Source of the DNA: Chloroflexota bacterium
Lineage (GTDB): Bacteria; Chloroflexota; Limnocylindria; Limnocylindrales; CSP1-4
NCBI GenBank assembly: GCA_027364875.1
Contig: DAHXON010000012.1
Span: 1-51,249, forward strand
Reading direction: 5' to 3'
Length of the DNA stretch: 51,249 bases
Shown piece by piece: positions 19,605 through 40,568 of the stretch. The notes beneath the pieces were generated by a model that was given only the letters and a program-made list of their open reading frames with translations, had not been told where the DNA came from and did not search any database. Every line of letters begins with the position of its first letter. The first letter of the stretch is position 1. The position numbers and the translations under genes are program-made.

Positions 19605-19633
19605 CGCCCCGTGCTGAATCCCTGGGAAAAGTC
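19605..19633. repeat. Left terminal inverted repeat
   Basis: 29 bp starting CGCCCCGTGCTGAATCCC. It is the inverse of 40540-40568 except at position 19 (T here, G there when both are read inward). Confidence 0.92.
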
Positions 19634-19965
19634 CGAGCCGGTTTTATGCATCTATTCACGGCCGGCGGGTGGTTTGGGGTGAATCTGGGCTGGTTCGCGC
19701 CCGGACCGGTCGTCGCACGGCACCTGGCTCATTGACATCCATCGTGCGATATCGGCGTGGGTTGAGTCGCAGATAAGCGGCAGATAATCCAACATCGCTA
19801 ACTTTGAGTAGGCCGGGCTCCGGTCTGCGGCCAGGCCGACGCGGACGACGCAGAGCGAGCCGACGAGGGAGTCGCCACAGCCGACCCGGCCCTCAGGCAA
19901 GCCGGGTTGCTCCCGAGATCGGGGCGAGTGGCGCTATCCGACTTGTCAGGGCTCTTTGAAGCCGG
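19634..19965. other. Left subterminal non-coding region
   Basis: About 330 bp inside the left terminus with no convincing gene. It is visibly richer in A+T than its surroundings. It contains two GCAGATAA direct repeats 11 bases apart (19769-19776 and 19780-19787). Such repeats could be extra transposase contacts. A frame of 82 codons on the minus strand (19652-19900) lacks any recognisable feature and was not called. Confidence 0.5.
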
Positions 19966-21252
19966 CTACCAGTTCATCGCATCTGGCCCGAAGGGCGCAG
20001 TGCCCCAGGTGGGATCCTTGCCTGGGAAGCCCTGGGGTGGCTCTGGACCGTCGTAGAGCCATTGATCGGGCGGTGCTTTGGCCGCGCCGATGGCGAAGCA
20101 GTAGCCGCTGATCGTCCTTCGCCACGCGTACCAGGAGTGCCGATTCTTCGCGACAGTCAGGTGGATCCCGTGGTCCGCTGGCAGGCGCTTGAGCGACGAG
20201 TCGGGGGTCAGGATCTTCATCAGATCTGGTTTGTACTGGCCGCCGAGCGTGCGGAACCAGCCCATCTGGCAAGTCGCAATCCACTGCAGCGCGTTCCGCG
20301 TATCCGCGAACTCGCGCTGGTCGAGCTGCCTGCCGTCCTCGTCGGTCCCCTTCACGCCGGCGTTGTCGACCAATCGCTGGGCGGCTCGCCGTTCGTCGGA
20401 CTCCTTGTTCCGCAGCGATCGCCGATGGTCGCCGACAATCTGAAGGCCCTCCCGGATCGACTTCGCGCGCGAGAGCTTCCAGTCGTAGGCCCAGCCTGGG
20501 GAGTTCATATCGCGCAGATGGAGCCGGAAGCCGAGAACCAGAGCGAGCTTCACTCTCCACCCGGCCTTACGTCCTTCGGCTATCGAGTCCAAGTGGTTCA
20601 AGGCCTGCTGGTACCTGAACAACACACTCAGGACGAAGACGAACGGCAGAGCCAAGGCGGTCAGCCAGACTGGCAACAAGAGCGACAGGGCGATCGAGCC
20701 CGGATCCAGAGTCCTCCAGTTCGAGATCAGCCACAGGGCTACGAAGGCGACCATGGCGAGGCCGATGACGGCCTGGAGCCGACGGCCAAAGCGTGTGACG
20801 ACGGCGTACTGCGCCTTGCCGGAGCCGAAGGCCACGACGAAGGTGGTGCAGGCGATTACCAGCTGGAGAACGATCTCGCCCGGTATCGACAGTGCTGTCC
20901 AGTTCAGATAGATGCCCAGCGCAACGCCGACAAGTCCGATCCTTCGAATCTGCAGCCAGTAGAAGGCTGGTTCGGTCGCATCGTTCACCCTGAACACCAT
21001 GAGGAGCCCGGCGGTCGCTACCCAGATCACCGTGTCCTTGAGCAGGTCCGCGTTCCAGAGCCCTAGCTGATAGGCCCCGGCGATTACCAGGGTCATCCAG
21101 GTCGTGTATAGCGCGACGAAGCTGAGGAAGAACCGGCTCCAGACCACGCCAAGAAGGTCGCGGACGATCGACCTCGTCGGCGGCCAGGCGACGGCTGCCG
21201 CCAGTACAACCCCTATCAAGATGAGCGATGCGATGTCGCGATTCGTGATCAT
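19966..21252 (-). CDS. Polytopic membrane protein of unknown function
   Basis: No family recognised. In the 428-residue protein the first 215 residues hold about six to seven membrane helices (for example ASLILIGVVLAAAVAWP, FFLSFVALYTTWMTLVIAGA and IALSLLLPVWLTALALPFVF). The last 210 residues are soluble, with a charged helical stretch and Trp/Pro-rich strands near the end (WLYDGPEPPQGFPGKDP). The ATG is at 21250-21252. It lies next to the left terminus of the element. The next gene, at 21474, runs the opposite way and is also membrane-anchored. The membrane-plus-cytosolic layout is seen in some membrane-acting defence effectors, but nothing specific supports that here. Confidence 0.8.
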   Translation of the reverse strand: MITNRDIASLILIGVVLAAAVAWPPTRSIVRDLLGVVWSRFFLSFVALYTTWMTLVIAGAYQLGLWNADLLKDTVIWVATAGLLMVFRVNDATEPAFYWLQIRRIGLVGVALGIYLNWTALSIPGEIVLQLVIACTTFVVAFGSGKAQYAVVTRFGRRLQAVIGLAMVAFVALWLISNWRTLDPGSIALSLLLPVWLTALALPFVFVLSVLFRYQQALNHLDSIAEGRKAGWRVKLALVLGFRLHLRDMNSPGWAYDWKLSRAKSIREGLQIVGDHRRSLRNKESDERRAAQRLVDNAGVKGTDEDGRQLDQREFADTRNALQWIATCQMGWFRTLGGQYKPDLMKILTPDSSLKRLPADHGIHLTVAKNRHSWYAWRRTISGYCFAIGAAKAPPDQWLYDGPEPPQGFPGKDPTWGTAPFGPDAMNW

Positions 21253-21473
21253 CAGATAGCCACGCCAACGAGTTTGGCTTCCCGGACGGTCATCAAAGAC
21301 TACAAACCGTCAAGCCAATCTACTCGCTCGGGAATCCCTCTCCGGTCACTTCTTCGGTCGTCGCCGAGCCAGGAGTCATCGAAGCTTGACTCGGACGCGA
21401 CCTCGACGAGGCTCCTGCGTCCGACCTGCGGCGTGTCGTCGTGGTGCCGAGGCGATCGTGCAGAGGGGTGCTT

Positions 21474-21974
21474 ATGAATGCCAGCGGTAGGCTCACCAAA
21501 GTCGTGGTGGTGGTCTGGGTTCTCGTCATTGGAGTCGTAGCCTTCAACGCCGTCTCCCCGATGCTCGACCGAGCGCTCGCTCCTAGGCCCCCTCTGCCAA
21601 CCGCCCGGGCAATGGCGGACAAGGTTCAGGCGCAAGGTTTCGTGCTCAATGGCAACCTCGCGGACGGCTACGACATCTTCATCAACGAGTCCGGTCCGGC
21701 CAAGGTCGCGGAGCCCAGGGTGGATATCCATGCCAGCGAGATCGCTCTCAACTCCACTGGCCTGGCCGCAGCTCGTTACGTTTTGTCTCTGTACCCGCCA
21801 CAAGTTCTAGCTGATTTCGACCTCGCGGTTCCCACGATCGAGGATTCGTTTGGCCAGAGGTTGGGCAGAATTCCCTACCACCTCAGCCCACCCGAGACGA
21901 TCGACTACAACTGGGGCGAGATGATCCTCAATCTGGAAGGCCCGGTTCTCCGGGTTGAGGTGATCCCTTCCTAA
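21474..21974 (+). CDS. Small membrane-anchored extracytoplasmic protein, unknown function
   Basis: 166 residues with an N-terminal membrane helix (KVVVVVWVLVIGVVAFNAV, about 9-27). A soluble part follows, predicted mainly beta, and probably outside the membrane. The start is the ATG at 21474-21476, preceded by a good ribosome site (AGAGGGG); an upstream in-frame codon at 21441 lacks one. No family recognised. It is divergent from the polytopic membrane protein (222-bp gap) and convergent with the restriction-modification gene. Confidence 0.75.
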   Translation: MNASGRLTKVVVVVWVLVIGVVAFNAVSPMLDRALAPRPPLPTARAMADKVQAQGFVLNGNLADGYDIFINESGPAKVAEPRVDIHASEIALNSTGLAAARYVLSLYPPQVLADFDLAVPTIEDSFGQRLGRIPYHLSPPETIDYNWGEMILNLEGPVLRVEVIPS

Positions 21975-22039
21975 AGGTCGCCATGGTCCCTGGAGGCTGC
22001 CAGGCTCCCAGATAGGTCGGCTGCTTGCCAGCTCGAGGC

Positions 22040-25000
22040 TTACAGCGGCGGGATCATGTCCCCGTCGAGGATCTCGCTCACGACCGGGTTGATTTCCGCC
22101 ATGACCCGGCAAGCGTCGTCCAAGGATCCGGCGATGCGGGCGAGCTCGGCGATGTTGGCACGCGAGAGCGTCCGTCCCTCTCGGTTCTCGAGCCAGAGAC
22201 TCAACGGCTGGTAGTTGCCCACACAGGTCGCCCACACCGTCGCCGAGACCGGCGTGAGGTACTGGCTGTCGTTGATGTAGAGCCGGTTGCCGGCAGAATG
22301 GTGGGGTTTGACGACACGAAGGTCGCCGGTGCCCTCGAGCTTCGGGGTGGTCGTCGGGGCCAGCTTCGCTTGATGGTGGCCTATGAGCGTGGCCCCCTTG
22401 CCCGCCAGTAACTCGAACAGAGCCGGATCTGCGGTGAGAGGGATTTTCGGGAAGTCCTCTGTGAGGGCTGCGCCGTGACTCTCGCGATAGGCGTCCGAAG
22501 CGATGACGGCGTACAGGTAGGCGGCGAAGGCCTCTGGCGTGAAGCGGTCGCCATAAGTTGTTCGCATCGCTTCGAGCCAACTGGGTTCGATGTTCGGGCT
22601 GGCAGCTTGCTCATCTTCCTGGAGTGGCAGCAGGTGTTCGTCGGGCGCGATCGTGCGGACGGCCGCGGTGTAGAGCGGGAAGTAGACCGCAGCGCCGAGG
22701 GTCCTCGAGGACAAGAGCGCCTGCATCCCCGGGATCGCGGTCACGAAGGCGTACGAGCTCTCTTCTGATGCGGACCGGGCAGAGACGATGGCGAGGTTGT
22801 TCTCAACCCGCTCGAGGTGTCCGCGGAGCACCTCCCGCCGGTCGCCGACGACATTGACATCGTCGTAGATCACCCGCTTGTCGAACGGGCGGTAGAGGAG
22901 GGAGCGAACCTTGCCCGGATCAGCGTGGCCGGCCAAGGCCGCCCGACGCCTGTGAAGGTTCCAGCGATCGTTGCTGTCGAGCCCCGATCGCCTGGGATAG
23001 GCGTCGTGGATCTCGCGATCGTCGATCGAGATGTCTGCGAACCGACCCATCTTGGCCAGGACATCGGCGGCATCGAAACCGATCGAGAGAGGATCCCTGT
23101 GAGAAATCACGCCCGGGGACTTGTATGGCATTAGTTTCTCAAGGGACGGCCAGCTCTCGTAATGCGCATGGAGTTCCCGAGGAATGAACGAGAAGCCGGG
23201 CGCGGCCGGGCTCGCTTCGGCCCAGCCGGCATCGTCTAGGGAAGCGCCGGCGAGGTATTGGAACTTGTCGGCCACGGTGCCACGAGTCTCGCGGTAGAAA
23301 ACCTTGGCGGGGCCTGCGTGCTCCGGCGTTCGGCGGATGAACAGCGTGATAGCGATACCCACCTTGACGGCCGCAAAGACATTGAAGTCCGGGCGGCCCG
23401 GCATCACGTCGCGTCGGTTGCCGTGGAGGTCGAGCGTCCAAATCTCGTCGAAGTGGTCGAGCATGAACTTGCGAACGCCCCTGGTCACGGAACGCGACAG
23501 GAAGGCCGAGTTCGTCACCATTGCGATCACGCCACGCCTCGGCGCGCCGTCCTGCTCGAGCAGCTTCCAAACCGACCAGCGGAGGAAGCGCAAGTAGTCG
23601 TCGTCGAGCGGACGCATGTTTCTTTCGCGCAGCGGCTGGCCGTCGACGGTGAAAAGCTCTGCCATGAGCTCGCCGATGTGCTCCTTGTTATGAGACGACT
23701 CCGAGTAGGGCGGGTTGCCGATGATGACCAGGAGCGGGACCCCCGCCTTCACCAGGTCAGCGCTACGGGTCTCGGTAACCAAGGCCCCGATGGCGGGCAG
23801 CACGCCGCCGGTTGGCGTTATTGGATCCGCGAGTGTGTTGGTCAGAAAGACGTTCGCGCGCTCATCGGGCCGGAGGGGGCGGCCGTTCTGCTCGTAGAAA
23901 GAGCCGAGTTTGAGATGGCAGATCGCGTACGGAGCGGGCAGCAACTCGAAGCCGTAGAGATGGGGCAGCAAATGCTGTTCGATCAAGGCCGGGATGACAG
24001 CCCCTCCCTCGCGCTCCCGGACCCGCGATATGGCGCGCTGCGCGGCACCGACAAGGAAGGTTCCTGTCCCGGCTGCTGGATCGAGGAGGCGAACGCGTGT
24101 GTCGGCCAGGCCGTCGAGGTCAAACCGCGTGATCAGTGCATCGTCAGTCGCTCGGACGGCGTACTCAACCAGGGGCGGATATGTGTAGAAGATGCCGCGG
24201 TCGATGCGCTCACCGGCGTCGTAGGCGGCCAGGAACGACTCATAGAAGTGAATCACCGCGTCGCTTTCGGCTGCCTTGACCGTTCCTGCCTGGCGGACGA
24301 GTGCGTCGGCCGAGGCACGGAGGATCGCCACAATATCGTCGATGATCCAGGACAGGCCCGCGGGTACCGTGTCTTCGTCTAGAAGGAAGCGGGTCGCACT
24401 TCTCAGGAACGCCGTCGACGTCGGGATGGCCAGGATCGCGCTCGTGCGGTTGAAGGTCGCCGCGGTCAGGTGATAGCGGCCGACGAACAAGCCATAGGCA
24501 ACGGTCTGGGCAAAGGCGTCGGCGAACTTGTCCTCGTCCATATCGGACATGAGGTTCTCGCGGTAGAACTTCGCGAGTGACCGCAGCGGGCCATCGCCGT
24601 GGCCATGGACGGCCTCCTCGGCTTCCTTGCGGAGCTCGGCACGAATGCCATCGCGCAGCCAGGCCGCGCGGCGAGCAAGCTCGATCGCCAAGCGTTCGGA
24701 CGAGGTGATCTGCGCCGGCTCCGCAGACAGCCACGCCTCGAGAATGTCGGTCGCCGCGTCGCGATCGGCGCGAGTGAGGTGGCCGGCGTCGAGATCAGCC
24801 GAGTTGATCAGGGTGCCGCGCCGGACTTCTACGCCGTCCCGCAGCAGGATGAAGTGCAGATAGTCCGTCAGCAGCAAGTTGGGCAATCGTCGGTAGGCGG
24901 CGAGCTGGGGCGTGTCGAGGACCGCTTCGAGTTGGCGGATCGTGCCCGGGGCCTTGGTCTCCCCGTAGCCCACAACGAGCGAGCCCCGCTTGACGATGAC

Positions 25001-25171
25001 ATCGGGCTGCCCCTCAACCGACGCGGCTTCGCCAAAGATCGTCGTGCCGGCCGGGGCAAGGTCGGTCATGAGCGTCACGAGCGGGTGGCGCAGCGATAGC
25101 TCGGGAGTAGCCTCGGGCTGTTCGCGGATGTGCCGAAGCTCGTGCAGGTAGACCCCGAAGTCAGCCGTCAT
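22040..25171 (-). CDS. Single-chain restriction-modification enzyme (type ISP/IIG-like)
   Basis: A 1043-residue protein that should both methylate adenine and cut DNA. Residues 45-75 show a PD-(D/E)XK nuclease core (Asp57 in QPDVIVKRGS, then GYGETKA with Glu71 and Lys73). A helical linker follows. Then comes a gamma-type N6-adenine methyltransferase with the SAM loop DPAAGTGTFLVGAAQ (about 360-375) and the catalytic NPPY in IIGNPPYSES (about 485). The last 100 residues (YINDSQYLTPVSATVWATCV) resemble the specificity domain of type ISP enzymes. Unlike true type ISP proteins there is no helicase, so type IIG is an alternative label. The ATG at 25169-25171 faces the DUF4209 gene across 209 bp. 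Confidence 0.9.
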   Translation of the reverse strand: MTADFGVYLHELRHIREQPEATPELSLRHPLVTLMTDLAPAGTTIFGEAASVEGQPDVIVKRGSLVVGYGETKAPGTIRQLEAVLDTPQLAAYRRLPNLLLTDYLHFILLRDGVEVRRGTLINSADLDAGHLTRADRDAATDILEAWLSAEPAQITSSERLAIELARRAAWLRDGIRAELRKEAEEAVHGHGDGPLRSLAKFYRENLMSDMDEDKFADAFAQTVAYGLFVGRYHLTAATFNRTSAILAIPTSTAFLRSATRFLLDEDTVPAGLSWIIDDIVAILRASADALVRQAGTVKAAESDAVIHFYESFLAAYDAGERIDRGIFYTYPPLVEYAVRATDDALITRFDLDGLADTRVRLLDPAAGTGTFLVGAAQRAISRVREREGGAVIPALIEQHLLPHLYGFELLPAPYAICHLKLGSFYEQNGRPLRPDERANVFLTNTLADPITPTGGVLPAIGALVTETRSADLVKAGVPLLVIIGNPPYSESSHNKEHIGELMAELFTVDGQPLRERNMRPLDDDYLRFLRWSVWKLLEQDGAPRRGVIAMVTNSAFLSRSVTRGVRKFMLDHFDEIWTLDLHGNRRDVMPGRPDFNVFAAVKVGIAITLFIRRTPEHAGPAKVFYRETRGTVADKFQYLAGASLDDAGWAEASPAAPGFSFIPRELHAHYESWPSLEKLMPYKSPGVISHRDPLSIGFDAADVLAKMGRFADISIDDREIHDAYPRRSGLDSNDRWNLHRRRAALAGHADPGKVRSLLYRPFDKRVIYDDVNVVGDRREVLRGHLERVENNLAIVSARSASEESSYAFVTAIPGMQALLSSRTLGAAVYFPLYTAAVRTIAPDEHLLPLQEDEQAASPNIEPSWLEAMRTTYGDRFTPEAFAAYLYAVIASDAYRESHGAALTEDFPKIPLTADPALFELLAGKGATLIGHHQAKLAPTTTPKLEGTGDLRVVKPHHSAGNRLYINDSQYLTPVSATVWATCVGNYQPLSLWLENREGRTLSRANIAELARIAGSLDDACRVMAEINPVVSEILDGDMIPPL

Positions 25172-25380: not shown

Positions 25381-27162
25381 ATGATCGATCAGCTGAACCG
25401 CGAATATACCGACGCCGACACAGCCCGTGCCGTTGAGATGGCCGCTTCACTCGAGACCGAAGACTCGCTCGACGCCATCATCGCGGCGCTCGGAGCAAAG
25501 GCAGAGGAGCTGAGCGGGACCGATCCGAGGGTCGCCGAGTTGATCGCCGCCGATGTTTGGGTGTGCCAGATGCAAATCGCCAGCGAGGCGCGTGAGGCCA
25601 AGGGCGACTCGCCCCTGGTCCCAAAGGTCACTTTCACGGACGGGAGCGCCCTCCCTCCCCCTGTTCGCGAGTGGCCAGATACGGTGCGTCCTTACTTCGT
25701 TGCCAGAGCCACAGGCACCACGCTCGAGCAGACTCGGGCCCGGTACAACGATTTTGTCTGGGCCCGATGGGGTCTCCATCCAAACGCGCGTGCGGCTCGC
25801 GACGCTTATCTCTCGATCGCGCGCGGTCGGGGCTTCCAGGCCGGAGGAAAGGCTGCAAGGACGATCCTTGAGCTCGGTCGCGCCGTCACGCTTGCCCAGA
25901 CCCTGGACATCGAGCGCGCTGAGACGGGCGCGATCATCGCCGACGAGATCGAAGGCGCTCTCGCCGAAGAGTCTTTACTCGGTGCTCGTCTGGTCACGCC
26001 AAACGCGGCCCGCCTCCTGGCGCTTGACGCAGCCCGAGCCACGGCACTCGTTGGTGCGCTGATGGCAGCCGCTCAGAATCATGAAGACCCGTACTGGGCG
26101 CGTGAGATCTACGGAACGGCGGGACTCCTCGCATCCGAGCTTAAGAGCGCGGCCGGCGTTGCCGCCGCTCGGTCTGCGATCGCGAGCTCGTGGGAAGACC
26201 AAGCTGCCAACGCCACCGATCCGATGACCCGTTTGCACTTCCTTCGTGGAGCTCTTGTGGCCTATCAGGCCATTCCAGGCAACCGCGAAGCTGTCCAGCG
26301 GCTGAGGGGGCAACTCGCAGAGGCCTCGGCCGACACTGCGCAGAACCTGCCTATGCATAAGTTCGAGTTCAAGATCTCGAACGAGCACTTCGACGCGGAT
26401 GTCAAGGAGTTGCGCGCTTTCCTGGCCCGTGATCAGTTCGGGCTTCTCAAGCTCCCGATTTGGCTGGGCGTGTTGCCTGACTGGGACAAGCTTCAGGCCT
26501 CGTTCGACGAGCTCCGGACGGAATACCCCCTTCAGTATCTGTTTCCTCGCGTCTCTGTAGAACGCGACGGTCGGATGCGGGCGGAGCCGGCCGACGAAGC
26601 CGAAAGGGAAGAGGCCCTGGTTCTCGGGCATTTCGCCCAGCAGGAACAACTCGGCGCGATCATCGCACTCAACTTCGTCGTCGCCATCCGCGAGTCGGGG
26701 GAATGGTCTGCAGGAAAGCTCATCGAGATGCTTGAGGGACTCGACCCCGACATGGCCTCGGCGTGCAGCTCAGGCATCGAAGCGTTTGAGGCGGGCGACT
26801 TCTGGACCGCAGTCCATGTCCTGATGCCTCAAGCAGAACGTGGCCTGCGCAATGTTGCTGTCGAGATCGACGGCAATGTGCATCGGCTCATAGGTACCGA
26901 CGAGGTTCGGGTCGCGACCCTCGACAAGATCCTCGAGGATCCAGCATTCGAGGCGAAGTTCGGCGCGAACACCGTGAAGAGCCTGCGTGGCCTCCTGACG
27001 GACCCCCGCGGCATGAACCTACGCAACCTCACGGCTCACGGACTGCTCGATCCTGCTGGGCAACACGCTCCGGCCGCCTTCGTGGCGCTGATGTGTGTTC
27101 TGATCGCCGTCTGGCTTCGGGCCTCAGTTGTCGCCGAGAAGGCACAGGCGTCCGCGTCTTAG
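25381..27162 (+). CDS. DUF4209-family protein with HEPN-like RNxxxHG motif (copy A)
   Basis: 593 residues, mostly helical. Near the C-terminus is RNLTAHG (Arg548, His553), the RNxxxHG signature described for DUF4209. It fits the R-x4-H active site of HEPN ribonucleases with a polar residue after Arg. A helix about 80 residues before it (FEAGDFWTAVHVLMPQAERG) matches the first HEPN helix. The same layout recurs in the copy at 34053-35729, with clear similarity along most of the length, for example RARYNDFVWARWG against RARYHEAIWTRWQ. RNA cleavage is inferred. The start is the ATG after GAGGGGACAC. Confidence 0.85.
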   Translation: MIDQLNREYTDADTARAVEMAASLETEDSLDAIIAALGAKAEELSGTDPRVAELIAADVWVCQMQIASEAREAKGDSPLVPKVTFTDGSALPPPVREWPDTVRPYFVARATGTTLEQTRARYNDFVWARWGLHPNARAARDAYLSIARGRGFQAGGKAARTILELGRAVTLAQTLDIERAETGAIIADEIEGALAEESLLGARLVTPNAARLLALDAARATALVGALMAAAQNHEDPYWAREIYGTAGLLASELKSAAGVAAARSAIASSWEDQAANATDPMTRLHFLRGALVAYQAIPGNREAVQRLRGQLAEASADTAQNLPMHKFEFKISNEHFDADVKELRAFLARDQFGLLKLPIWLGVLPDWDKLQASFDELRTEYPLQYLFPRVSVERDGRMRAEPADEAEREEALVLGHFAQQEQLGAIIALNFVVAIRESGEWSAGKLIEMLEGLDPDMASACSSGIEAFEAGDFWTAVHVLMPQAERGLRNVAVEIDGNVHRLIGTDEVRVATLDKILEDPAFEAKFGANTVKSLRGLLTDPRGMNLRNLTAHGLLDPAGQHAPAAFVALMCVLIAVWLRASVVAEKAQASAS

Positions 27163-27223: not shown

Positions 27224-27601
27224 TTAGTCGACCAGTTCCCGCTTGGTCCATTGCCAGCCGTACCGGCCAGAACTCAGTTTGTGGGACTTTCCATCCTTCG
27301 GATCGGGCCACGGGCCCGGGTCGAAGGTAAAGACGAGATCGAGCAAGAAGCTCGTGGTCTCTTCCGGCAGGGACGCGTCGGTGTGAAAGTAGTGGCCGCA
27401 AGCGCCGCACTCGGCCTCGATCGCGTTGATTTGATCGCCGTCTTTGTCGCCCTGCTCGGGCTCCAAGCACAGCCCCTCCGGATAGACCCGACGCCACTGT
27501 TGGGCCTCCCAAAAAGCGCGGACCATCCAGTACGGGGGCACCACTCCGCATTCTGGACAGGCGGGCAGATCGGCTGCGTATGGCGTATAGGCGGCAGGCA
27601 T
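27224..27601 (-). CDS. Small zinc-binding protein, unknown function
   Basis: 125 residues. Two CxxC knuckles (Cys15/Cys18 in CPECG and Cys65/Cys68 in CGACGH) should hold one zinc. An acidic, Gln-rich spacer lies between them, and a Trp/Lys-rich end follows. No family is recognised. It lies between the 3' end of DUF4209 copy A and the HTH gene, on the opposite strand from copy A. Confidence 0.65.
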   Translation of the reverse strand: MPAAYTPYAADLPACPECGVVPPYWMVRAFWEAQQWRRVYPEGLCLEPEQGDKDGDQINAIEAECGACGHYFHTDASLPEETTSFLLDLVFTFDPGPWPDPKDGKSHKLSSGRYGWQWTKRELVD

Positions 27602-27730: not shown

Positions 27731-28225
27731 CTAGACCGCTTTCATGAGCACGAGGACATCGGCGACGCGGCCATGGAGCAGGGCCGATCTGGGGGTAAGT
27801 CCGTCGAGGTCAGGGGTCTCGATCTCCACCCAGCGCGACAGGGCCACCAGCGAGCCTGGGAAGCCGGCAAGCATGTCGCGGAGACCCGCAAGGGTGCCGG
27901 TCGCAGACTCTGGGTCGAACTGCCAGCGGGGTAACCGCCACTCCCGGCCGACCTTGAGGCCAGCGAGATCCCCGCGACCGATCATCGCGCTCACCGCCTG
28001 AGCACTGACGCCGAGGATCTCGGCCGCGTCCTCGCGGGTGATCGATTGCTCGATCAGGGCCCGCCGGCGCTCGACGCCGACCGCGACATTCCAGGCCGCA
28101 GCTTCTTCGATGGCCGCGGGAGTGGGCTCGGGACCATACGCCGACAGCAGCTCAAGAACGGCGGCGACCGCTTCATCAGTGGCATGTTCAAGGGCCGCGA
28201 CCGCCTGGACCCGCTGGCTCGTCAT
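27731..28225 (-). CDS. HTH DNA-binding regulator, possibly MbcA/ParS/Xre-antitoxin-like
   Basis: 164 residues. Residues 62-100 form an excisionase-like helix-turn-helix with a wing (ITREDAAEILGVSAQAVSAM, then LKVGREWRLPRWQF). The C-terminus (GLTPRSALLHGRVADVLVLM) recalls the last helix-turn of DUF2384 antitoxins, but the RES toxin normally paired with those is absent. The 128-bp divergent region towards the metallopeptidase gene contains repeats that could be its operators. It therefore probably regulates itself and that gene. The antitoxin likeness is tentative. Confidence 0.75.
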   Translation of the reverse strand: MTSQRVQAVAALEHATDEAVAAVLELLSAYGPEPTPAAIEEAAAWNVAVGVERRRALIEQSITREDAAEILGVSAQAVSAMIGRGDLAGLKVGREWRLPRWQFDPESATGTLAGLRDMLAGFPGSLVALSRWVEIETPDLDGLTPRSALLHGRVADVLVLMKAV

Positions 28226-31758: not shown

Positions 31759-32733
31759 TTACAACTCAGTTGATGCCCAGGGATCTGTGTAATCGGAACT
31801 GATGTTGATCTGACCAGCTCTAACCCTCGCCGCGACCTCCGGCGAGAAGATCCCAAAGTCAAACGAGCGTCCTCCGCGGCCCGCTGTACCAATCCCCCGG
31901 ACCTTCGCCCCCGTCCAATAGTCTGCAATTGGGCCCAAGCCGGGGAGATCTAGAGCGAGCCGCCGGTAAAGAATCTGGAGCATGTCATAGAGCGGATTCG
32001 GAGTCGGAGAGCCCTTTCTTAGTAGCTCTTGCGGTGTCATGTACAGGACCTGAACCCCGCCTTCAGCCGGGAGTTTGAGCGTCTCGCGCAGCTTCTCCCA
32101 AGAGCGGGGCGCGGTGGCCGGATTCACCAGGTTCTTCATGTTCGCCCAAGTTCCGAGACTGGCGATCGTCAGAAAGTCGAGAGACTCGCGCGGGTGGGCG
32201 ATTTGCGCCAGCCCCTCGTCGAGGGTCTTGAGTATCGCCTCGACACTCAGCCGTTGGCTCTGATGCGCCAAGAGTCCGTACAGAATCGGCGGCACCAGTT
32301 CATCACGGAGGTTCTCGCCCTTACGCGGGCCGACGAGCGCCCGGAGGCTACGACCGCGTTCCACGGCATCGGCGATGTGGGACTTTCGAAGGGTGAGTTT
32401 GCATTCAAAGACGGCGAGGACGCCGCCCGCGAGGTAAATCTTCTTCTTGGCCAAGTGGGGCGGGTAAGTGTCTCGCAAGACGATCACATCGAGTTGCTGG
32501 CTCAGGCGACCGTCTAGGGCGGCAATCCGGCCCTTGGTCACGACTTGAACAGAGGCCGGCAACCACTGCCGCAACAGCTCGGCCCATGTCGCCTCGGACT
32601 GATCCCCGGCGGTGCCCGGATCTGAGCTGGCCGACTTGCGAATCCGGGCGTAGTCAAGCTTCAGCCCGGATGCAACCTCATCGAGGAAGCTCTCGAGGTC
32701 GTGGGGCGCATCAGCTACGGGTTCAGTGCTCAT
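31759..32733 (-). CDS. DUF6602-like protein with PD-(D/E)XK nuclease-type core
   Basis: 324 residues. QLDVIVLRD (Asp82) followed by VLAVFECKLTL (Glu110, Lys112) is a restriction-endonuclease-like core. The layout, with a helical head and LRQWLPASVQVVTKG just before the core, resembles the DUF6602 family; I am fairly but not fully sure of the name. The C-terminal 200 residues are alpha/beta with no recognised motif. Its start overlaps the upstream nuclease-like gene by 11 bases, so the two form an operon. It is convergent with the transposase gene, only 8 bases apart. Confidence 0.75.
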   Translation of the reverse strand: MSTEPVADAPHDLESFLDEVASGLKLDYARIRKSASSDPGTAGDQSEATWAELLRQWLPASVQVVTKGRIAALDGRLSQQLDVIVLRDTYPPHLAKKKIYLAGGVLAVFECKLTLRKSHIADAVERGRSLRALVGPRKGENLRDELVPPILYGLLAHQSQRLSVEAILKTLDEGLAQIAHPRESLDFLTIASLGTWANMKNLVNPATAPRSWEKLRETLKLPAEGGVQVLYMTPQELLRKGSPTPNPLYDMLQILYRRLALDLPGLGPIADYWTGAKVRGIGTAGRGGRSFDFGIFSPEVAARVRAGQINISSDYTDPWASTEL

Positions 32734-33445
32734 GCTGCTCAGCGGTCACCCGTTCCAGCACGACGCGTTCGGCCTCAAGGTCGAGGTTGGTGGCTCGCCA
32801 CCCGACATCCTTGATGGCACGAACGACGGCGCTGCCCTTGTAGCCGCTCCAGTGCGACGCCCACTCACGAGACGAGGGCGGAAGCGGGAACCCGAGGACC
32901 TCCTCGATCTCATCGAAGGACACCTCGATCCGATCGCGCTTCTCGCCTACAAGCCAGTTCGACAGCGCTGCGTACTTCCTGCCGCTGACCTCGTTCGTCT
33001 CGGGTTGGGTCGTCTCGACGGAAAGCCCATCAAACAGGTCTCGCAACTCTGTGCCTCCGACCCGGAGCGTCTCGACCTGGGCCTCATCCCAGATCGCAAC
33101 CCGCGCGCCGTGCCGTTCGACCAGCAGTCGAGCGAATGACCTGGTCGACTCCACCTCCGGCCCATCGCCGGCGAGCACGATGACGCCGAGCGCAGGCTGC
33201 AGGTCCATAAGGTTCATGAGGTCGCCCTTGAGGTGCTTCCGGGACCGCCGGCTCGACTCGATCTCGAAGCCGACGAGCGGGAGCCTTACCGGAAATCGCT
33301 CCGGGTCCTCCCAGAACCAGACAACATCTAGACGCCCGCCCGGAACTGGATACTCGCGCCTCGTGCTCAGACCGAGTGCCTGGCCTGCGTCCAGAAGGGC
33401 CACCGTTAGCCGTTCGTTTCGTTCTCGTGCCGGCTCCTCGTCCAT
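32723..33445 (-). CDS. Nuclease-like protein (variant PD-(D/E)XK core), unknown function
   Basis: Counting from the ATG at 33443-33445 the protein has 240 residues. GGRLDVVWFW (Asp40) and LVGFEIESSRRSRKHLKGDL (Glu61, Glu63) form a restriction-fold core with E-x-E in place of E-x-K. NLMDLQPALGVIVLAGDG continues as the next strand, seen in many such nucleases. The 80 residues at the C-terminus contain LGFPLPPSSREWASHWSGYK, similar to a small DNA-binding module in other nuclease-like proteins. A frame up to 33544 remains open upstream but looks less protein-like. It is the first gene of the pair with 31759-32733. Confidence 0.65.
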   Translation of the reverse strand: MDEEPARERNERLTVALLDAGQALGLSTRREYPVPGGRLDVVWFWEDPERFPVRLPLVGFEIESSRRSRKHLKGDLMNLMDLQPALGVIVLAGDGPEVESTRSFARLLVERHGARVAIWDEAQVETLRVGGTELRDLFDGLSVETTQPETNEVSGRKYAALSNWLVGEKRDRIEVSFDEIEEVLGFPLPPSSREWASHWSGYKGSAVVRAIKDVGWRATNLDLEAERVVLERVTAEQHEH

Positions 33446-33659
33446 GGGTCGAACGATACGCCGCAACGATCGCTTCGAGAACGCACTCTCCGCGCTTGAC
33501 AAGGCCGTCGCGCCGTTACCGACTTCCTGATCGTTGCCGCACAACTGCGACGGGCGGCCCCTGGATCAGCATTTCGGCCTCGTTCTTGACACCGGCATAC
33601 GAGCGCCAAAAGTCCCCTGATGCCATCCGGCACCGACCAAGGATCCGTGAGGGGACATC

Positions 33660-34052: not shown

Positions 34053-35729
34053 ATGGTGTTTGCCGACCTCGGCAGCTTTGCCGCGGGTCTGCGGCAGGTC
34101 TCGGAGGCATGTCCGTCCGGGGCGCGCGAACTCTTGCAGCTCGACGCATCCCTATGCTCGCTCTGGCTCGTCGGACCATCCGGGAGAGCCTTCGCGGGGA
34201 TCTACCCATTGGAAGGTTTCGAGCCCGGAGCCTACCCAGACTCGACGAAGCCGTACTTCGAGCAGCGGGCGGACATGACCGCCAATCCATTCGCGCGTGC
34301 CCGCTACCACGAGGCGATTTGGACGAGGTGGCAGGACCACACGCATGCGTGGGCCGCTCAGGCTGACTACCTGGAGATTGCCCAGGCTACAGATCTCGAG
34401 GCCGATGATCTCGTCGATGTGTTTGACATGCCCGCCAGAGCGGCCCAACTAGCACTCCACCTCAAGCACGACCGGGAGGCTACTGGCGCTGTCCTCCGGT
34501 CGGAGATCCGACGGAGTGTCGGTCTCAGCACTATTGGCTACCCCTGCGCGGTGGCCGAACATGGAGGGCAGCTCATTGCCCTTGACCCGACGGATGCCCG
34601 AGGACTGATCGCGGAGATTGACGCAGAGGCCAAATCCAGCCGCGAGGCGGGCGACTTCCTTCGAGAGCGGGGGCTCCTCGACGCGTGCGCCGAGATCGCC
34701 GAGGGCTTGAACGACAAGCCTCTCGCTCGCGAGTTCCGGGTGCGCCACGCCCGGAGCCTAGAGGCTCAAGGGCACGAGGACGAGAGCGGAACAGGAGCCC
34801 TCTTCGTCCTTACGGAAGCAGCCGAGGAATACAAGAACCTGGGTCTCGGCGACGATGCTCAACGGCTCAAAGCCCACCTCATCGAAGCCAGCCTTAAGTC
34901 CGAGGCCGAGATGGTGACGATCAGTGGCCAGGTTGAAATCCCGATTGCGGAGTTCGAGGCGACCGCGCGGAAGCTTCGAGCCTGGGACGGAGAGGGCCCT
35001 GGTCCAATCTTGTCTCTACCCTTTGAGCTCGGCGTCTGGCGGCCGATGGCCCAACTCGTAGCCGGGCAGAAGAAGGAGGAGGGCGGCCACGGGGTCGTCC
35101 TGTCGCTGTTTCGGCACATTCAAATCGCGCACGACGGCCGCAACCAACCTGAACCCGAAGATGAAGGGCCTGCACGGCTCGACTCCTACATCTCGAGGAC
35201 CATCTGCGGCGACGCGAGCCTTTCCCAGGCCTACCTGAGATGCCTCCGCGGGCACGGCAGTTGGACGGTGTTGCGCGTCGCTGCAGCCCTTCACGGGGTC
35301 GATGCAGAGCTCGCCGGTGCGATGCTGCCGGGACTCCGAGCCTTCGAGGCTGGCGACCACTGGACCGCGCTCCACTTGTTCATCCCCCAGCTCGAGCGCC
35401 TCGTCCGCGAGCTCGGGCGAACGGTTGGGGCGACGATCTCGAGCTACACCAAAGAGAACGGTCTGCGATGGGCAGACATGTCCGAGGTGTTGGCCCAAGA
35501 CCAAGTCAGAACGGCCATGACCGAGGACCTGGCGAAGGAACTCGAGGCCATCTTCTTGAGCCGGTTTGGAGCGAACCTGCGGAACAACTTCGCTCACGGA
35601 GCGCTCGAGCGGGCCAACATCGGCAACTCCCAATCGACGGTCACCTTGTACGCGATCTTCGCCGTCGGGCTGTACCTGATGATCGCCCGGGGTCAGGCTA
35701 AGTTCGAAGACGCCCCGGCTGGGCGCTAG
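34053..35729 (+). CDS. DUF4209-family protein with HEPN-like RNxxxHG motif (copy B); 5' end looks frameshifted
   Basis: 558 residues from the first in-frame ATG. It is paralogous to copy A (25381-27162). Both share PYF-x-R, the RARY-x5-W-x-RW segment, FEAGDHWTALHLFIPQLERL and the C-terminal RNNFAHG (Arg510, His515). Homology continues upstream of the ATG: the codons from 33981 read INQPDFGPDEIAAALAAAQE, matching the IDQLNREYTDADTARAVEMA start of copy A. The ATG that should precede them (33976-33978) follows a good ribosome site but is two bases out of frame (ATGAGATC, where ATGATC is expected). This is either a frameshift, a sequencing error, or use of the internal ATG. The next gene starts 9 bases after the stop. 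Confidence 0.83.
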   Translation: MVFADLGSFAAGLRQVSEACPSGARELLQLDASLCSLWLVGPSGRAFAGIYPLEGFEPGAYPDSTKPYFEQRADMTANPFARARYHEAIWTRWQDHTHAWAAQADYLEIAQATDLEADDLVDVFDMPARAAQLALHLKHDREATGAVLRSEIRRSVGLSTIGYPCAVAEHGGQLIALDPTDARGLIAEIDAEAKSSREAGDFLRERGLLDACAEIAEGLNDKPLAREFRVRHARSLEAQGHEDESGTGALFVLTEAAEEYKNLGLGDDAQRLKAHLIEASLKSEAEMVTISGQVEIPIAEFEATARKLRAWDGEGPGPILSLPFELGVWRPMAQLVAGQKKEEGGHGVVLSLFRHIQIAHDGRNQPEPEDEGPARLDSYISRTICGDASLSQAYLRCLRGHGSWTVLRVAAALHGVDAELAGAMLPGLRAFEAGDHWTALHLFIPQLERLVRELGRTVGATISSYTKENGLRWADMSEVLAQDQVRTAMTEDLAKELEAIFLSRFGANLRNNFAHGALERANIGNSQSTVTLYAIFAVGLYLMIARGQAKFEDAPAGR

Positions 35730-35738
35730 CCATCCGAC

Positions 35739-38700
35739 ATGGACGACCTACCCGGACGGCTCAACCAAGAGCGGCACAGAACCCAAGCCAAGCGAGACTC
35801 GGCCTCTCGCCGGTTCGCAGAACTTATCTCTGGCTATGACCCCGCCCTTCTCTCGGCCGCTCTGGCTGCATTGACCATTCGCCCAGAGAATGCCGACTTC
35901 CAATTCCGGCTCGAGTCGATGATCGATGTAGCCTCGTCGCGGCCTTCTGAGGCGCGACTGGTTCCAACGGTCAAGAAGATCCGCGGCTTATGCACAGGCA
36001 GCCTCTCGCATCAGTTAGTTGCGCCCCTCGAGGACCCCGCGGAATGCCCCACGACACAGATCCTTCTGTTCGACGATCACGCCTACACCGCGTTTTCAGG
36101 CCAGCAGCCTGAGCTCGTCTTCAGTTGCGAAATCCTGTTCGGGGCACTCATCGGTCTGGCCGCCGATCGACCCGATCTCCCGCTGACGCCCACGCTGGAC
36201 CTCATCCGAGCCGTCCTGACGCTGGGGGAATCGGTCGCCAAACGTTCGAGCATCGATCCTGACGCACCCGCGCTTCACCAGAGCCAGATCTTGGTACCAG
36301 AGACGGGCCTCGAAGAGCTGATTGGGCCCGTCCGATGGTCCCGCGCAGAGGTCGAGTCCTTGTTGGTCGCGGCAGGACTCCCGGTCGCAGTGTTCGACCC
36401 CCTCTGCCGGCCCTATGGAGAGTCATCCGGGGAGCGTTTCGTCCCGTTGCTGAGGAATGGAGACACGGTCATCGTCCGGCCTGGTCGACTGCTCTTTGGG
36501 CTAGCCAGGGCGGTGCTGCGATTGGCCGAAAAGGAAGGCTTCCTGCCGCTCGTAGCCGAACGCTATGGCCGAGAAGTCCATGGGCAAATGGCGGCATCGA
36601 TCCTGGTCATGGACGCTCGGCCGATACAGCTTCCGTTCGACGATGTCGGCGGTCAGCCCACGGTCTCGGAAGCAATGTTCGAACTGGACCATGACGCGGT
36701 GATGCTCTTGGTCACGATTACCGACGGGATTGATAGGCTCGATCTTCCCGACGGAGAGGACCGCATCTTTCCCTCTGACGCCTTGAAGACGGCGCTTCTG
36801 GAGCGGTTCCGCGATCTGGTCGGGGCAGTCCAGAAGCAGGCCGCGGATCGCGAGATCCTCATCTGTGTGTGTCGGGCGGTACTCCCAGGCATTGAATACT
36901 GGCTCCGCGAGTTCGACTTCGGTGGTGGTGCTGATCTCCTGTTCGTGACACCGGAAGCGCTCAGGGTCATCAGTCACCATGAACACGATCCCTTGACCCT
37001 GCTGCGCTTCGCCCAGGCGTTGAAGAGTCTCTACGAGGGCTCACGCGTCTTCTCGTGGAGCGCCCTCGATGAGTTCGCCGTCTATCGCGGGCATGGCTAC
37101 TCGTTCCACTTGAACGAGGAAGGCGTGCCGCCAGCGGTCTCGATCGTGCCCGGCATCGGGCTTCCTCTCCACCAGCAGATGCTCGACGACCTTCAACGAC
37201 AGTCGGCATTTGCGCCGAACGGGGCCGGCGAGATGGAGCTGGTGTGCGCGTCGTATCCCGGCGTCCCGATCTTCGTGCCGACGATCTCACGAGGCCAGGC
37301 CACACGAGTCGTGCGCCTGCCCAACCTGGATATCTGGATCGCGGGCGAACCGTACGAGGAACTGCCCGACGGTATGACTGGGTTCTCAGAAGGTCTGATT
37401 GATGCCGTGGCGTACTGGGCTTGGATGGCCGGATCGGCCATTCAGGACGACGCCCCGCCCGTAGGCTCAGCGCGATCAGTGGCCATCGGCATTGGGCTGG
37501 GCGAGCACAAGGGCGAGGGTTGGGTCCTCAACCGGCTGCCGGCGATCGGTTCCGAGGATGGAATTCTGGGCCGACTTGATCGCGTCGGCGATAGGGTCAT
37601 CTTGTGGCTACCGCCCGGATTGCTTCGGACGATGGCCAGCCCGGGCAACGAAGGAGAGGCGCATCTGGCCAGGGCGATTACGGGCAGCCTTCTCCAGCTG
37701 CTCGGTTTGGGCGAGGAGCATCTGGACGAGATCGCAAGCCAGATAGCCCCAGCCGGCGAACGCCGGATGATACTCGTCACCAACAGCGATACAGCATCGA
37801 TGCTCGGCCCCGACGACGGCCTGCCTAACTGGCGCAAGGTCTCGCAATGGGATCTACATCGGATCCGCGACGAGCTGGCCGAGGGGTTCCGTACCCGAGG
37901 ATTTGCCCCTGGACCAGCCGGTTCCAAGGCCGATCAAACCTCGCTCCTCAACTTCGCCGTGGAGTTCTGTTATGAGCGGCTCGTTGCGGAAGTGGCAGAA
38001 CTCGCGCCTGATGGCCTGCTCGAGGACCTTCTCCGGCGCAATGAGGGGCTGCTCCTCGCACGCGAGAAGCTGCGGATGCTCGGAGTCACCCGTCGCGCTT
38101 GCTTCGGTGATCGGCGCGAAATCCTCGAGCCTCTCGTCCGTGAGGATCTCGAGTGGTCCGATGCGGACGCGAGCCATCGCTTCCTGATCGAATATGTCGC
38201 TGCTCGGCCCCCGAGCGGGTCACGAACTCTGTCGCTGGCTCGCTACGATCGGATCATCGCGCTCGCGTGTCTGATCATCCAGCTTGGGATGCAGAGTGAC
38301 ATCATCAAGAACGAGCTCGACGACATCGAGGCCAGAATCGCCCCGAGCGGACGGTTGTATTTGTCTCCGGGCAAGTACTCGGCCGCGGTTGTCCGCTGGT
38401 TCTCCGGGGTCTCGCGACGAAAGCTCGAGATCGCAAAGGAACAGTTCCCCGAGCATTGGGAACCCGCCCGCGAAGGTCCGATACAAGCGCCTGCCGCGTT
38501 CGAGGCGGCGTTCCTGGCCGAATACGGCTTCTCCGCGACGGACTACGGGAGCGTCCTCTATGTGCTCCGCGATCTGGCCGCGGACGGACAGGCTTCACTG
38601 GCGGTCTTGCCTCGAGCCGTGGTTTTGGCCGAGTGCACCCGACTGCGCGGAGTGACGGCCGACGCAGCGGATCTGATTCTGTCCTCCATGACCCTCGAGC

Positions 38701-39461
38701 AGCGGGATGACTTCCTTTCGCCTCCGCCTCCATTCAGCCAACTCGATGTCCGTCCGTGGCGCTTTGGCCGAGGCTTATCTCTGCTTGCGCGGCCTCTTGT
38801 TCGCCGTAGCGATGATCTCGTCTGGGGTCGGCGCGCCGTCAATATGTCAGCTGAGTACCTCCAGATGCAGCTCGGGAGTGGCCGTTTGAAGGCCAGGTCC
38901 AAGGCGCTGCAGAAGATGCGTTCGGATATCTCGACAGCCGCAGGCAAAGCCTTCGAGGCAGAGACGGCTGAACGCGTCAGGGAACTTGGCTTCCTCGTCA
39001 AGCCGAACACCGCCGAGGTGGGTGGAGTTCCAATCAGCGATGCGAGAGGGACCTTGGGCGATGTCGATGTCCTCGCCGCAGATACGAGGACCAAGAGGAT
39101 TTGGGCCATCGAGTGCAAGGCCTTCGCGATGGCGCGGACGCCTTGGGAGATCAGCCGCGAACTCCTCAAGTTCACTGACCCGTCGCATGGTGTGGCAGCT
39201 CATCACACCCGGAGGATCGAGTGGCTTCGCGCGCACCTAAACGACACTCTGCAAGAGTTCGATATCGCTGACCAGAAGGGTTGGAGAATTGAGCCGCTAA
39301 TCGTCCTCGAAGTCGATCTGGCCGCGGCGCACCTGCACGACAGCCCCATGCCGATCACGGATCTGGTGGGATTGCCGGCCGTTCTCCGGCCCGCTAAGAG
39401 GCCTTCTGTGTCAGAACCTTCTGCTTCGCGATCACGCGCGCGTGGATCTGGTCGAGCATGA
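35739..39461 (+). CDS. Very large protein with C-terminal PD-(D/E)XK nuclease domain, unknown function
   Basis: 1240 residues. Only the last 170 are recognisable: GKAFEAETAERVRELGFLV, GDVDVLAADTRTKRIWAIEC and the following Lys, with Asp1110, Glu1125 and Lys1127 as a restriction-type active site (NERD/Mrr-like). The long N-terminal part is mixed alpha/beta with many Leu-rich helices and no Walker motif that I can find. The ATG lies 9 bases after the DUF4209 copy B stop, so the two are co-transcribed and are likely to work together. Its last 68 bases overlap the 3' end of the next gene on the other strand. Confidence 0.8.
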   Translation: MDDLPGRLNQERHRTQAKRDSASRRFAELISGYDPALLSAALAALTIRPENADFQFRLESMIDVASSRPSEARLVPTVKKIRGLCTGSLSHQLVAPLEDPAECPTTQILLFDDHAYTAFSGQQPELVFSCEILFGALIGLAADRPDLPLTPTLDLIRAVLTLGESVAKRSSIDPDAPALHQSQILVPETGLEELIGPVRWSRAEVESLLVAAGLPVAVFDPLCRPYGESSGERFVPLLRNGDTVIVRPGRLLFGLARAVLRLAEKEGFLPLVAERYGREVHGQMAASILVMDARPIQLPFDDVGGQPTVSEAMFELDHDAVMLLVTITDGIDRLDLPDGEDRIFPSDALKTALLERFRDLVGAVQKQAADREILICVCRAVLPGIEYWLREFDFGGGADLLFVTPEALRVISHHEHDPLTLLRFAQALKSLYEGSRVFSWSALDEFAVYRGHGYSFHLNEEGVPPAVSIVPGIGLPLHQQMLDDLQRQSAFAPNGAGEMELVCASYPGVPIFVPTISRGQATRVVRLPNLDIWIAGEPYEELPDGMTGFSEGLIDAVAYWAWMAGSAIQDDAPPVGSARSVAIGIGLGEHKGEGWVLNRLPAIGSEDGILGRLDRVGDRVILWLPPGLLRTMASPGNEGEAHLARAITGSLLQLLGLGEEHLDEIASQIAPAGERRMILVTNSDTASMLGPDDGLPNWRKVSQWDLHRIRDELAEGFRTRGFAPGPAGSKADQTSLLNFAVEFCYERLVAEVAELAPDGLLEDLLRRNEGLLLAREKLRMLGVTRRACFGDRREILEPLVREDLEWSDADASHRFLIEYVAARPPSGSRTLSLARYDRIIALACLIIQLGMQSDIIKNELDDIEARIAPSGRLYLSPGKYSAAVVRWFSGVSRRKLEIAKEQFPEHWEPAREGPIQAPAAFEAAFLAEYGFSATDYGSVLYVLRDLAADGQASLAVLPRAVVLAECTRLRGVTADAADLILSSMTLEQRDDFLSPPPPFSQLDVRPWRFGRGLSLLARPLVRRSDDLVWGRRAVNMSAEYLQMQLGSGRLKARSKALQKMRSDISTAAGKAFEAETAERVRELGFLVKPNTAEVGGVPISDARGTLGDVDVLAADTRTKRIWAIECKAFAMARTPWEISRELLKFTDPSHGVAAHHTRRIEWLRAHLNDTLQEFDIADQKGWRIEPLIVLEVDLAAAHLHDSPMPITDLVGLPAVLRPAKRPSVSEPSASRSRARGSGRA

Positions 39462-40347
39462 AGAGCACCCTCGCCGAGTTGTACTCCGTGCCGTAGCCGG
39501 TCGAACGGCCGTGAAGAACAAAATGACGGTTGAGCTCGCGGCTCGTTGGCTGCACGGTCGAGAAGTCGATGTTTCCGTATAGGTGGATCGCGACATCCAC
39601 GATCACGGTATCGATGTCGATCGCGCTGGCGATGGCCAGAGCGTCTTTGGGGTTGGCATCCGTGCTTTTGGGCTTGAACTCCTCGATGGCGATCCCTTCG
39701 ATCAGCGGGAGGAGCGTGGGAATGCTTACGCGGTAGCGGCCGTCCCGGTGATCCTTGATGCCATCGAGGATGAAGCGCCGACGATTCTTGAAGCTCTCCG
39801 CGTCCATCCAGCTCTCGCCCAGATCGCGCAGCAGTGGTCCTCGAGCGAGCTTGGTCATTTCCTGCCGAACGGACAGACGCTTGCGTTCCACGGCGAGCTG
39901 TCCGATCCGAAGGAAATCTTCGTGGTACATCGCTCGCGGAAACCACCAGCCCATGTCGGCTAGAGCCGCGTCGTGCTTCCGAGCAGTCTCGCGCAGTGAT
40001 CTCGCGCGCACGCCGAATTCGACGGCCGATGCGGCGGCGATCGGCTCGACCATCTTGGCGATCCAAGCTCGGAACGAGTCGGCCATCGTTTCGTAGGGCG
40101 CGGTCACCTCTGCGATGGCCTTCTGGATCTGAAGCAGCTGCAGTCGAAGCGGCTCGGTGTAGGCGTTCATCGCGGCCTGAAAATCGGCCGCCCAAGAGAC
40201 CATGTCTGGAATCCGATACGCCGCGAGGAGGTTGAGCCCGGGATTGACCAGGACCTGCCTCTGCAGATCTTGGAGCTGACGCACGGACGCAATCGTGTCG
40301 GCGAAGCCAGGCGGGATCAATCGAGCAGGAGCAATTCCCTCATCCAC
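39394..40347 (-). CDS. HEPN-like helical protein (R-x4-H motif), unknown function
   Basis: 317 residues, largely helical. Near the end is LNRHFVLHG (Arg274, His279), an R-x4-H pair with a polar residue after the Arg as in HEPN ribonucleases. YGTEYNSARVLFMLDQI, which usually follows in such proteins, comes next. Residues 202-225 (DGRYRVSIPTLLPLIEGIAI) would be the first helix of that domain. It is the third R-x4-H protein in the element. It overlaps the 1240-residue gene tail to tail by 68 bases. The ATG is at 40345-40347, 190 bp from the right terminus. Confidence 0.75.
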   Translation of the reverse strand: MDEGIAPARLIPPGFADTIASVRQLQDLQRQVLVNPGLNLLAAYRIPDMVSWAADFQAAMNAYTEPLRLQLLQIQKAIAEVTAPYETMADSFRAWIAKMVEPIAAASAVEFGVRARSLRETARKHDAALADMGWWFPRAMYHEDFLRIGQLAVERKRLSVRQEMTKLARGPLLRDLGESWMDAESFKNRRRFILDGIKDHRDGRYRVSIPTLLPLIEGIAIEEFKPKSTDANPKDALAIASAIDIDTVIVDVAIHLYGNIDFSTVQPTSRELNRHFVLHGRSTGYGTEYNSARVLFMLDQIHARVIAKQKVLTQKAS

Positions 40348-40494
40348 CTCGCCAGCTTACGCTCGGGTTTCGACCGGTGTTTGGCCGCTGCTCACTTCGG
40401 ATCAACACCTCCAGGTCGAGGCTCCAGCACATTGGCCTGCCATCTATGCTTCTGTCTACTGGTGGCGGATCGGCCTAGCGAGGCCCTGCCCGGT

Positions 40495-40514
40495 GCATAG
40501 TCTCGCTTCTATGC
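40495..40514. repeat. Short inverted repeat near the right terminus
   Basis: GCATAG and CTATGC, 8 bases apart, 26 bases inside the right terminal repeat. It is a possible accessory transposase site or small hairpin. The rest of 40348-40539 shows nothing else. Confidence 0.4.
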
Positions 40515-40539
40515 GCGACCTATCCAGCCCCTTCTGCGC

Positions 40540-40568
40540 GACTTTTCCCCGGGATTCAGCACGGGGCG
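40540..40568. repeat. Right terminal inverted repeat
   Basis: 29 bp; the inverse reads CGCCCCGTGCTGAATCCC and onward, matching the left end at 28 of 29. It supplies the stop (TGA) that now ends the radC 5' fragment. Confidence 0.92.

Follow-up and report, generated by a model that had tools for sequence, protein, structure and literature searches.

A putative Mutator/IS256-type transposon with defence-like cargo inserted in the radC gene of a Chloroflexota bacterium

How did a block of 21 kb come to lie within the codons of a conserved bacterial gene, and which enzyme would have placed it there? The question is raised by a stretch of 51,249 nucleotides from a Chloroflexota bacterium (contig DAHXON010000012.1, assembly GCA_027364875.1), hereafter termed the window, in which an insert of 20,964 bp at positions 19605-40568 interrupts radC. 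The insert has a sole pair of 29-bp inverted ends, the left at 19605-19633 (plus strand) and the right at 40540-40568 (minus strand), which are identical at 28 of 29 positions with the mismatch at position 19. It is flanked by a perfect 8-bp duplication, GTTGGATC, at 19597-19604 and 40569-40576, which, read on the minus strand, spells the D-P-T codons of radC. In a scan for duplications of 7-10 bp adjoining 25-bp inverted ends, these ends score 24/25. One other pair is listed in the window, at 18/25, and the best of 40 first-order Markov resamples of the window reaches 19/25 (8-bp duplications only), thus upholding the boundaries that an earlier note had drawn from the letters of this DNA. A search of the same genome with the first 96 bases of the element finds matches only at its two ends, and two further contigs that match a 22-base end pattern with 2 mismatches were taken as background. 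The G+C content amounts to 62-65% inside the insert versus mostly 67-72% outside, where it dips to 64-65% at about 45-48.5 kb.

The interrupted gene, with its UPF0758_N and RadC domains, is radC. Its 3' part (19449-19604, minus strand), reading PTPSPDD up to the stop, is severed from the 5' part (40569-41173, minus strand), which ends with HNHPSGD|PT at the element and whose open reading frame (40556-41173) continues into it. When the flanks are joined in silico, the result is a single radC whose alignment with those of 19 fetched relatives runs over the full length. Each of the 20 further genomes of the genus has a radC that matches up to the break point and reads through it, and they thus provide the empty sites that the earlier note had proposed to look for. 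The two flanks belong together, since the fetched relatives keep the same neighbours: mreB adjoins radC in all 19, and the gene at the opposite flank is kept in 16. No second radC was found in the draft genome of the window, which is about 90% complete, and the function of RadC has therefore probably been lost in this host.

The candidate for the enzyme is a protein of 834 residues (29246-31750, plus strand), which we assign to the Mutator/IS256-type transposases with a DDE (aspartate-aspartate-glutamate) active site and which carries DUF4379 repeats at its C-terminus (E 3.5e-19). Its match to the MULE domain is weak (E 0.0022, 18.8 bits, cut-off 27.6), and its scores for the IS256 (11.6 bits, cut-off 150) and IS1249 (14.5 bits, cut-off 300) models fall well short of the thresholds, which distinguishes it from the IS256 family proper. 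Among eight members of the transposase family, counting E values up to 1, the IS1249 model fits six (best 4e-6) and the IS256 model four (best 1.1e-5). An AlphaFold2 model, whose mean predicted local distance difference test score (pLDDT) is only 65.7 for the whole protein, contains a core at about residues 190-490 with strands and helices in DDE order (pLDDT 64-92, poor at 221-240 and 331-370). In this model, Asp 216 is located in the first strand, Asp 289 just past a later strand and Glu 437, which is conserved in 7 of 8 aligned proteins, in a helix following a helical insert. Together with Cys 310/His 313, these are the catalytic residues that we propose. All five chains retrieved by Foldseek from the PDB at E<=0.001 are of the ISCth4 transposase, an IS256 family member (best 4.6e-6). 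Prokaryotic Mutator-type (p-MULT) elements, IS256 among them, are described to have an RNase H-fold DDE core, a C(2)H motif, ends of 18-39 bp with a terminal C and duplications of 8-9 bp (PMC3942029). Such a core is found in the predicted model and its Foldseek match, and the 8-bp duplication and 29-bp ends with terminal C fall within the described ranges. Profile scans of the cargo proteins with Pfam, PADLOC and NCBIfam recognized no other recombinase family, and the type of transposase named in the earlier note holds.

Elements with like ends are present in other genomes, as the earlier note had suggested checking. The 22-base end pattern, at up to 2 mismatches, is matched in 40 of the 107 genomes of the window's family, from which we kept two, G053 and G032, and a possible pair in a third, G072. 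Matches in G015, G065 and G160 were fetched and then dropped, as inspection by eye showed no radC at their junctions and they bounded no element. The remaining matches, including those at one mismatch in G008 and G031, were assessed on the basis of the match list. The second large element is located in Chloroflexi bacterium UBA5189 (DHWF01000001.1; G053:C27:50368-70784) and spans 20.4 kb between ends matching at 30 of 31 positions, with the duplication GACGCAAC. A third insertion, in G032, is defined by a left end whose first 28 bases are identical to the left end in G053, and over the first 16 bases the left end in the window shares 13 with both (by eye). Queried with open reading frames of at least 60 residues from the window, the second complete element has just one gene clearly in common with the first, that of the transposase, which in both is oriented toward the 5' side of radC. 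A match of 25 residues in an antisense frame (E 0.004) was taken as chance.

The feature that we consider most unusual, and that the earlier note had not remarked on, is the shared target, which falls within the part of radC that is conserved best. The duplication in the window covers the D-P-T codons of HNHPSGD|PT and the element end in G032 is placed in radC at GD|PT, while the left flank in G053 reads HNHPWGDAT and resembles radC, 5' of the insertion point, over no more than about 38 bp (by eye). In the last 48 bases of this flank, 29-37 positions match the window and 24 relatives, compared to a chance level of 15-24 positions in the preceding 72 bases. A degenerate pattern of the 3'-side junction, written from these three insertions themselves, was run against 177 genomes of the class. 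It is exact in those three and in no other, has no match at one mismatch, and its matches at two were taken as background. The corresponding 5'-side pattern is exact in G000 and G053 only, with 2-3 mismatches in others, and in 84,980 species genomes, from which the window's own or near records may have been left out, it is found only in G053. A radC fragment in G076, which is cut by a contig end just a few bases beyond the site, was left out of the count.

The elements at this site differ in what they carry. In the window, PADLOC models fit 5 of 12 cargo proteins at E values of 1e-20 or lower and one more, a helix-turn-helix protein, at 2e-5, as opposed to none of 10 flank proteins at 1e-5, which agrees with the description of the cargo in the earlier note as rich in nuclease, HEPN-like and modification genes. 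Of the eight cargo proteins in G053, four match at 1e-3 and three of these at 1e-5, and of four proteins in the G032 end and the G072 unit two match at 0.01, one of them at 1e-5. The presence of like elements at one site with differing, partly defence-like cargo thus suggests a lineage of prokaryotic Mutator/IS256-superfamily transposons that homes to radC, in which a single transposase would insert the whole unit together with exchangeable cargo. We assign a probability of a little over three in four to this interpretation, which draws on the sequence for the ends, the duplication, the empty sites, the shared target and the transposase motifs, and on a prediction for the fold of the transposase. 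In such a lineage, the transposase would bind the 29-bp ends and insert the entire 21 kb into radC at the codons just past the conserved HNHPxG motif, generating the 8-bp duplication. As the transposase is the only gene clearly common to both complete elements, the choice of target probably rests with this protein or with a host factor attached to it, which would recognize about 38 bp of radC lying 5' of the point of insertion.

By analogy to IS256-type enzymes, movement likely proceeds by copy-out/paste-in via a circle. This mechanism is reported for ISCth4 (PMC7780238), and p-MULT elements are stated to use circular intermediates (PMC3942029); the cut-and-paste movement assumed in the earlier note has no independent support. 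In G053, a right end is followed after just 8 bp by a left-like end. This arrangement resembles the junction of a circle, although tandem insertion alone may explain it. The left-like end belongs to a 2.5-kb unit with like ends (G053:C27:70793-73297; L038/L133) that follows in tandem directly after the duplication of the large element, with no matching duplication at its right side. Its protein of 635 residues is 76% identical to the product of the first gene of the G032 element and is found at near-equal distance from the end.

Among relatives of the transposase gene that lie in a bounded element, small insertion sequences prevail. Counting the window's own genome, the gene is present in 16 of 151 relatives, in 23 of the 107 genomes of the family and, at E<=1e-15, in 12 of 400 genomes of the phylum, 8 of which belong to the family. 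We scanned 28 further loci for ends and 8-bp duplications, comprising a first set of 13, a second of 14, for which two of 16 were repeats, and one more; L093 could not be judged owing to runs of N. Both features surround the transposase at 6 loci of the first set (5 small elements and one large), at 3 of the second and at the one additional locus. In total this yields nine small elements of 2.1-3.7 kb, the weakest ends being those of L081 (20/25) and L004 (21/25), and one element of 20.4 kb. Many of the loci without a bounded element stop near the transposase gene or hold a fragment of it. A bounded element of 2.6 kb that adjoins a family transposase without enclosing it (L041:3174-5793), whose ends are of a different type and whose duplication measures 9 bp, was left out of the count. 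In a tree of the transposases, the position of the window protein is not resolved. A plasmid or phage origin was considered and rejected, since no plasmid or phage record attained 80% coverage. Searches with tblastn matched 35 of 72,556 plasmid records, 18 of them from Piscirickettsia, and 2 of 50,697 phage records, and the matches span only the DUF4379 part without the DDE core in the 20 plasmid records listed and in both phages. Viral contigs contained neither a match to the end pattern nor a relative of the transposase.

Several observations weigh against a radC-homing lineage driven by its own transposase. Only three insertions at the radC site are available, all in draft genomes, and in G053, whose intact radC resides elsewhere, the element adjoins a radC-like stretch instead of the gene. 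The contig in G032 stops 3.2 kb into the element, so that the other end and the second copy of the duplication are unseen, and no transposase match was found in this genome in the searches of the 151 relatives, the 107 family genomes and the 400 phylum genomes, the last of which scored two candidates per genome. The transposase relic within the G053 element carries in-frame stops, and it is 26% identical to the protein in the window, with which it does not form a supported clade. In the proposed C(2)H motif, C310-E-Q-H313, 20 residues separate Asp 289 and Cys 310 compared to a published range of 11-19. Many of the PADLOC matches in G053 are to general helicase models, in part including those of a helicase protein of 1994 residues. 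Finally, neither a circle nor movement was observed, and no radC is found in the flanks of six small elements (one of them, in L041, without a transposase inside), from which it follows that specificity for radC does not extend to the transposase family at large.

Some of these points would be accounted for if the large elements were moved in trans or by an unrecognized enzyme of the cargo, with the Mutator-type gene itself being cargo. Besides the broken transposase in G053, the large distance between the two transposases despite their alike ends and the absence of a transposase match in G032, this view finds support in a transposase-free unit of 4.3 kb in G072 (G072:C203:4562-8863; L128), which has like inverted ends of about 38 bp (by eye) and no target duplication. 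We nevertheless consider it improbable, since the transposase is the only gene clearly common to both complete large elements, its relatives reside in small elements with the same style of ends and 8-bp duplications and no other recombinase family was recognized in the scanned cargo. Moreover, the stretches searched around the transposase gene in either element contain no nested inverted ends (threshold 15/18), for which reason we also rejected the gene as a nested insertion sequence.

It also appears unlikely that radC constitutes a general hot spot of open or conserved DNA instead of a target read by the transposase. In favour of a hot spot, the unrelated Tn554 family uses a conserved site in the same gene (PMC3788773), and some other process has duplicated radC 3' ends in two genomes, where the gene is followed by one extra copy (G162:C24:7749-10698; L182) or two (G090:C108:69306-74335; L183), with the copies 1-3 kb apart. 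These might be what another radC-directed process leaves behind. A hot spot would, in turn, not explain why three elements with like ends occupy precisely the same base position, why the G053 element adjoins some 38 bp of radC-like sequence where the remainder of the gene is missing and why the small elements examined are not found at radC. An assembly chimera, for which the 208 contigs of the draft could be invoked, or a wrongly bounded integrase island is very improbable in light of the perfect duplication, the radC that reads through once the flanks are joined, the conserved neighbours on both sides, the same site and like ends in other assemblies and the absence of an integrase in the Pfam, PADLOC and NCBIfam scans of the cargo.

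A radC-homing transposon invites comparison with established targeted elements. Tn7-like transposons home to conserved coding sequences in one orientation and carry accessory cargo. They require TnsABC and TnsD/TniQ and generate 5-bp duplications, whereas no TnsA, TnsB, TnsC or TniQ was detected in the scans of the cargo. Tn554 relies on the three genes tnpABC, which encode tyrosine recombinases and a helper; no tnpABC gene was recognized in the cargo and the DDE enzyme is unrelated. The likeness to the Tn554 family concerns the conserved site in radC, at the level of the gene, and the exchangeable cargo. Tn554, Tn558, Tn559, Tn5406 and Tn6188 are described to insert into radC at a highly conserved position that is preceded by conserved sequence (PMC3788773), mostly in one orientation and with exchangeable cargo, Tn6188 measuring 5117 bp (PMC3788773, PMC9616846). 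One paper names a hexamer in radC, GATGTA, and states that a hexamer is duplicated (PMC9616846), whereas the title of a cited paper states that Tn554 makes no target duplication. The sources thus disagree on this point, and the insertion described here has a duplication of 8 bp. The hexamer is presumably located at the codons G-D-V, the same as in our case.

Elements of the p-MULT type extend up to 52 kb and include integrative conjugative elements (ICEs) such as TnGBS and those of Mycoplasma, as described in 2014, with insertion sites reported to be random, to lie upstream of promoters or to be AT-rich motifs (PMC3942029). The remark in the earlier note that its author knew of no described family of this kind therefore goes too far, although those elements were not described with this cargo or target. 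The window element shares with p-MULT members the DDE fold, the length of its ends, the terminal C and the 8-bp duplication, it has a C(2)H-like motif at the wider spacing given above, and some members are likewise large or prefer sites. It differs in its target within radC codons, in the C-terminal DUF4379 zinc repeats and in its defence cargo. Unlike TnGBS, which inserts upstream of sigma-A promoters, it resides inside a coding sequence, and unlike TnGBS and the Mycoplasma ICEs, no relaxase or secretion gene was found in the same scans of the cargo. In the open-access literature we found no Mutator-type element at radC, no link of DUF4379 to a transposase and no Mutator-type transposon with the cargo of a defence island, although such absence does not prove that none is in print. 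Large Mutator-type elements and radC as an address for insertion are not new singly, but the combination of a Mutator-type enzyme at radC with zinc repeats and defence cargo appears to be, on the basis of three insertions in draft genomes.

If correct, this interpretation would extend the known insertion habits of the Mutator superfamily by the ability to home to a coding sequence, and it would imply that one DDE transposase can move whole defence islands without integrase or conjugation genes. It also raises the question of why unrelated families of transposons pick conserved codons of radC. In a bolder scenario, which we hold tentatively and at slightly less than even odds, the transposase alone, perhaps via its DUF4379 zinc repeats, would read about 38 bp of active-site codons in radC and repeatedly deposit exchangeable defence islands, stacking in tandem as in G053. 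This would amount to Tn7-like homing with one protein, converged on the gene used by Tn554. A single protein that reads a short segment of radC would offer a simple model for the targeted insertion of large cargo.

The cargo of the window comprises 12 likely genes besides the transposase, fewer than the approximately 15 counted in the earlier note. The five strong PADLOC matches are a type ISP/IIG restriction-modification enzyme (22040-25171, minus strand; Type_ISP_C 7e-52, REase_MTase_IIG 9e-150), two DUF4209 proteins with HEPN-type RNxxxH motifs, one at 25381-27162 (plus strand; RNLTAH at residue 548), which corresponds to the defence candidate PDC-S39, and the other at 34053-35729 (plus strand; RNNFAH at 510), a DUF6602/NucC-like nuclease (31759-32733, minus strand) with an ECK motif at 110, and an Upx-like protein (35739-39461, plus strand) with an ECK motif at 1125 (Upx 1.1e-24; NF042954 1.3e-33, at 115 bits versus a cut-off of 1900). 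The sixth match is a putative regulator of the HTH_17 type (27731-28225, minus strand; HTH_17 8.5e-8, mad1 2e-5). Further genes encode an M41/FtsH-like peptidase (28354-29034, plus strand), a DUF7662 protein (32723-33544, minus strand) and a zinc-ribbon-like protein of 125 residues (27224-27601, minus strand), whose assignment is weak and below the cut-off, with no PADLOC match. The remainder are a protein of 428 residues without a family (19966-21252, minus strand), predicted to be a membrane protein on inspection of its sequence, a protein of 177 residues with no family match (21441-21974, plus strand) and one of 317 residues with no convincing family (39394-40347, minus strand). Judged from these sequences, the cargo may protect against phages.

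In the other elements, the end in G032 carries an HTH-Panacea antitoxin-like gene, and the 4.3-kb unit in G072 encodes a protein combining a caspase with a DEAD-helicase and another of 256 residues. Second, partial matches to the C-terminal half of the radC query are found beside the main radC in G020:C28, G057:C122 and G072:C8. In G053, a serine recombinase (Pfam) and a tRNA-like 3' end (by eye), at which ARAGORN finds no tRNA, precede the radC-like stretch (G053:C27, about 49020-50140), and a terminase-like open reading frame (by eye) is located past the array at about 73380-74900; the array may thus reside inside a prophage or island.

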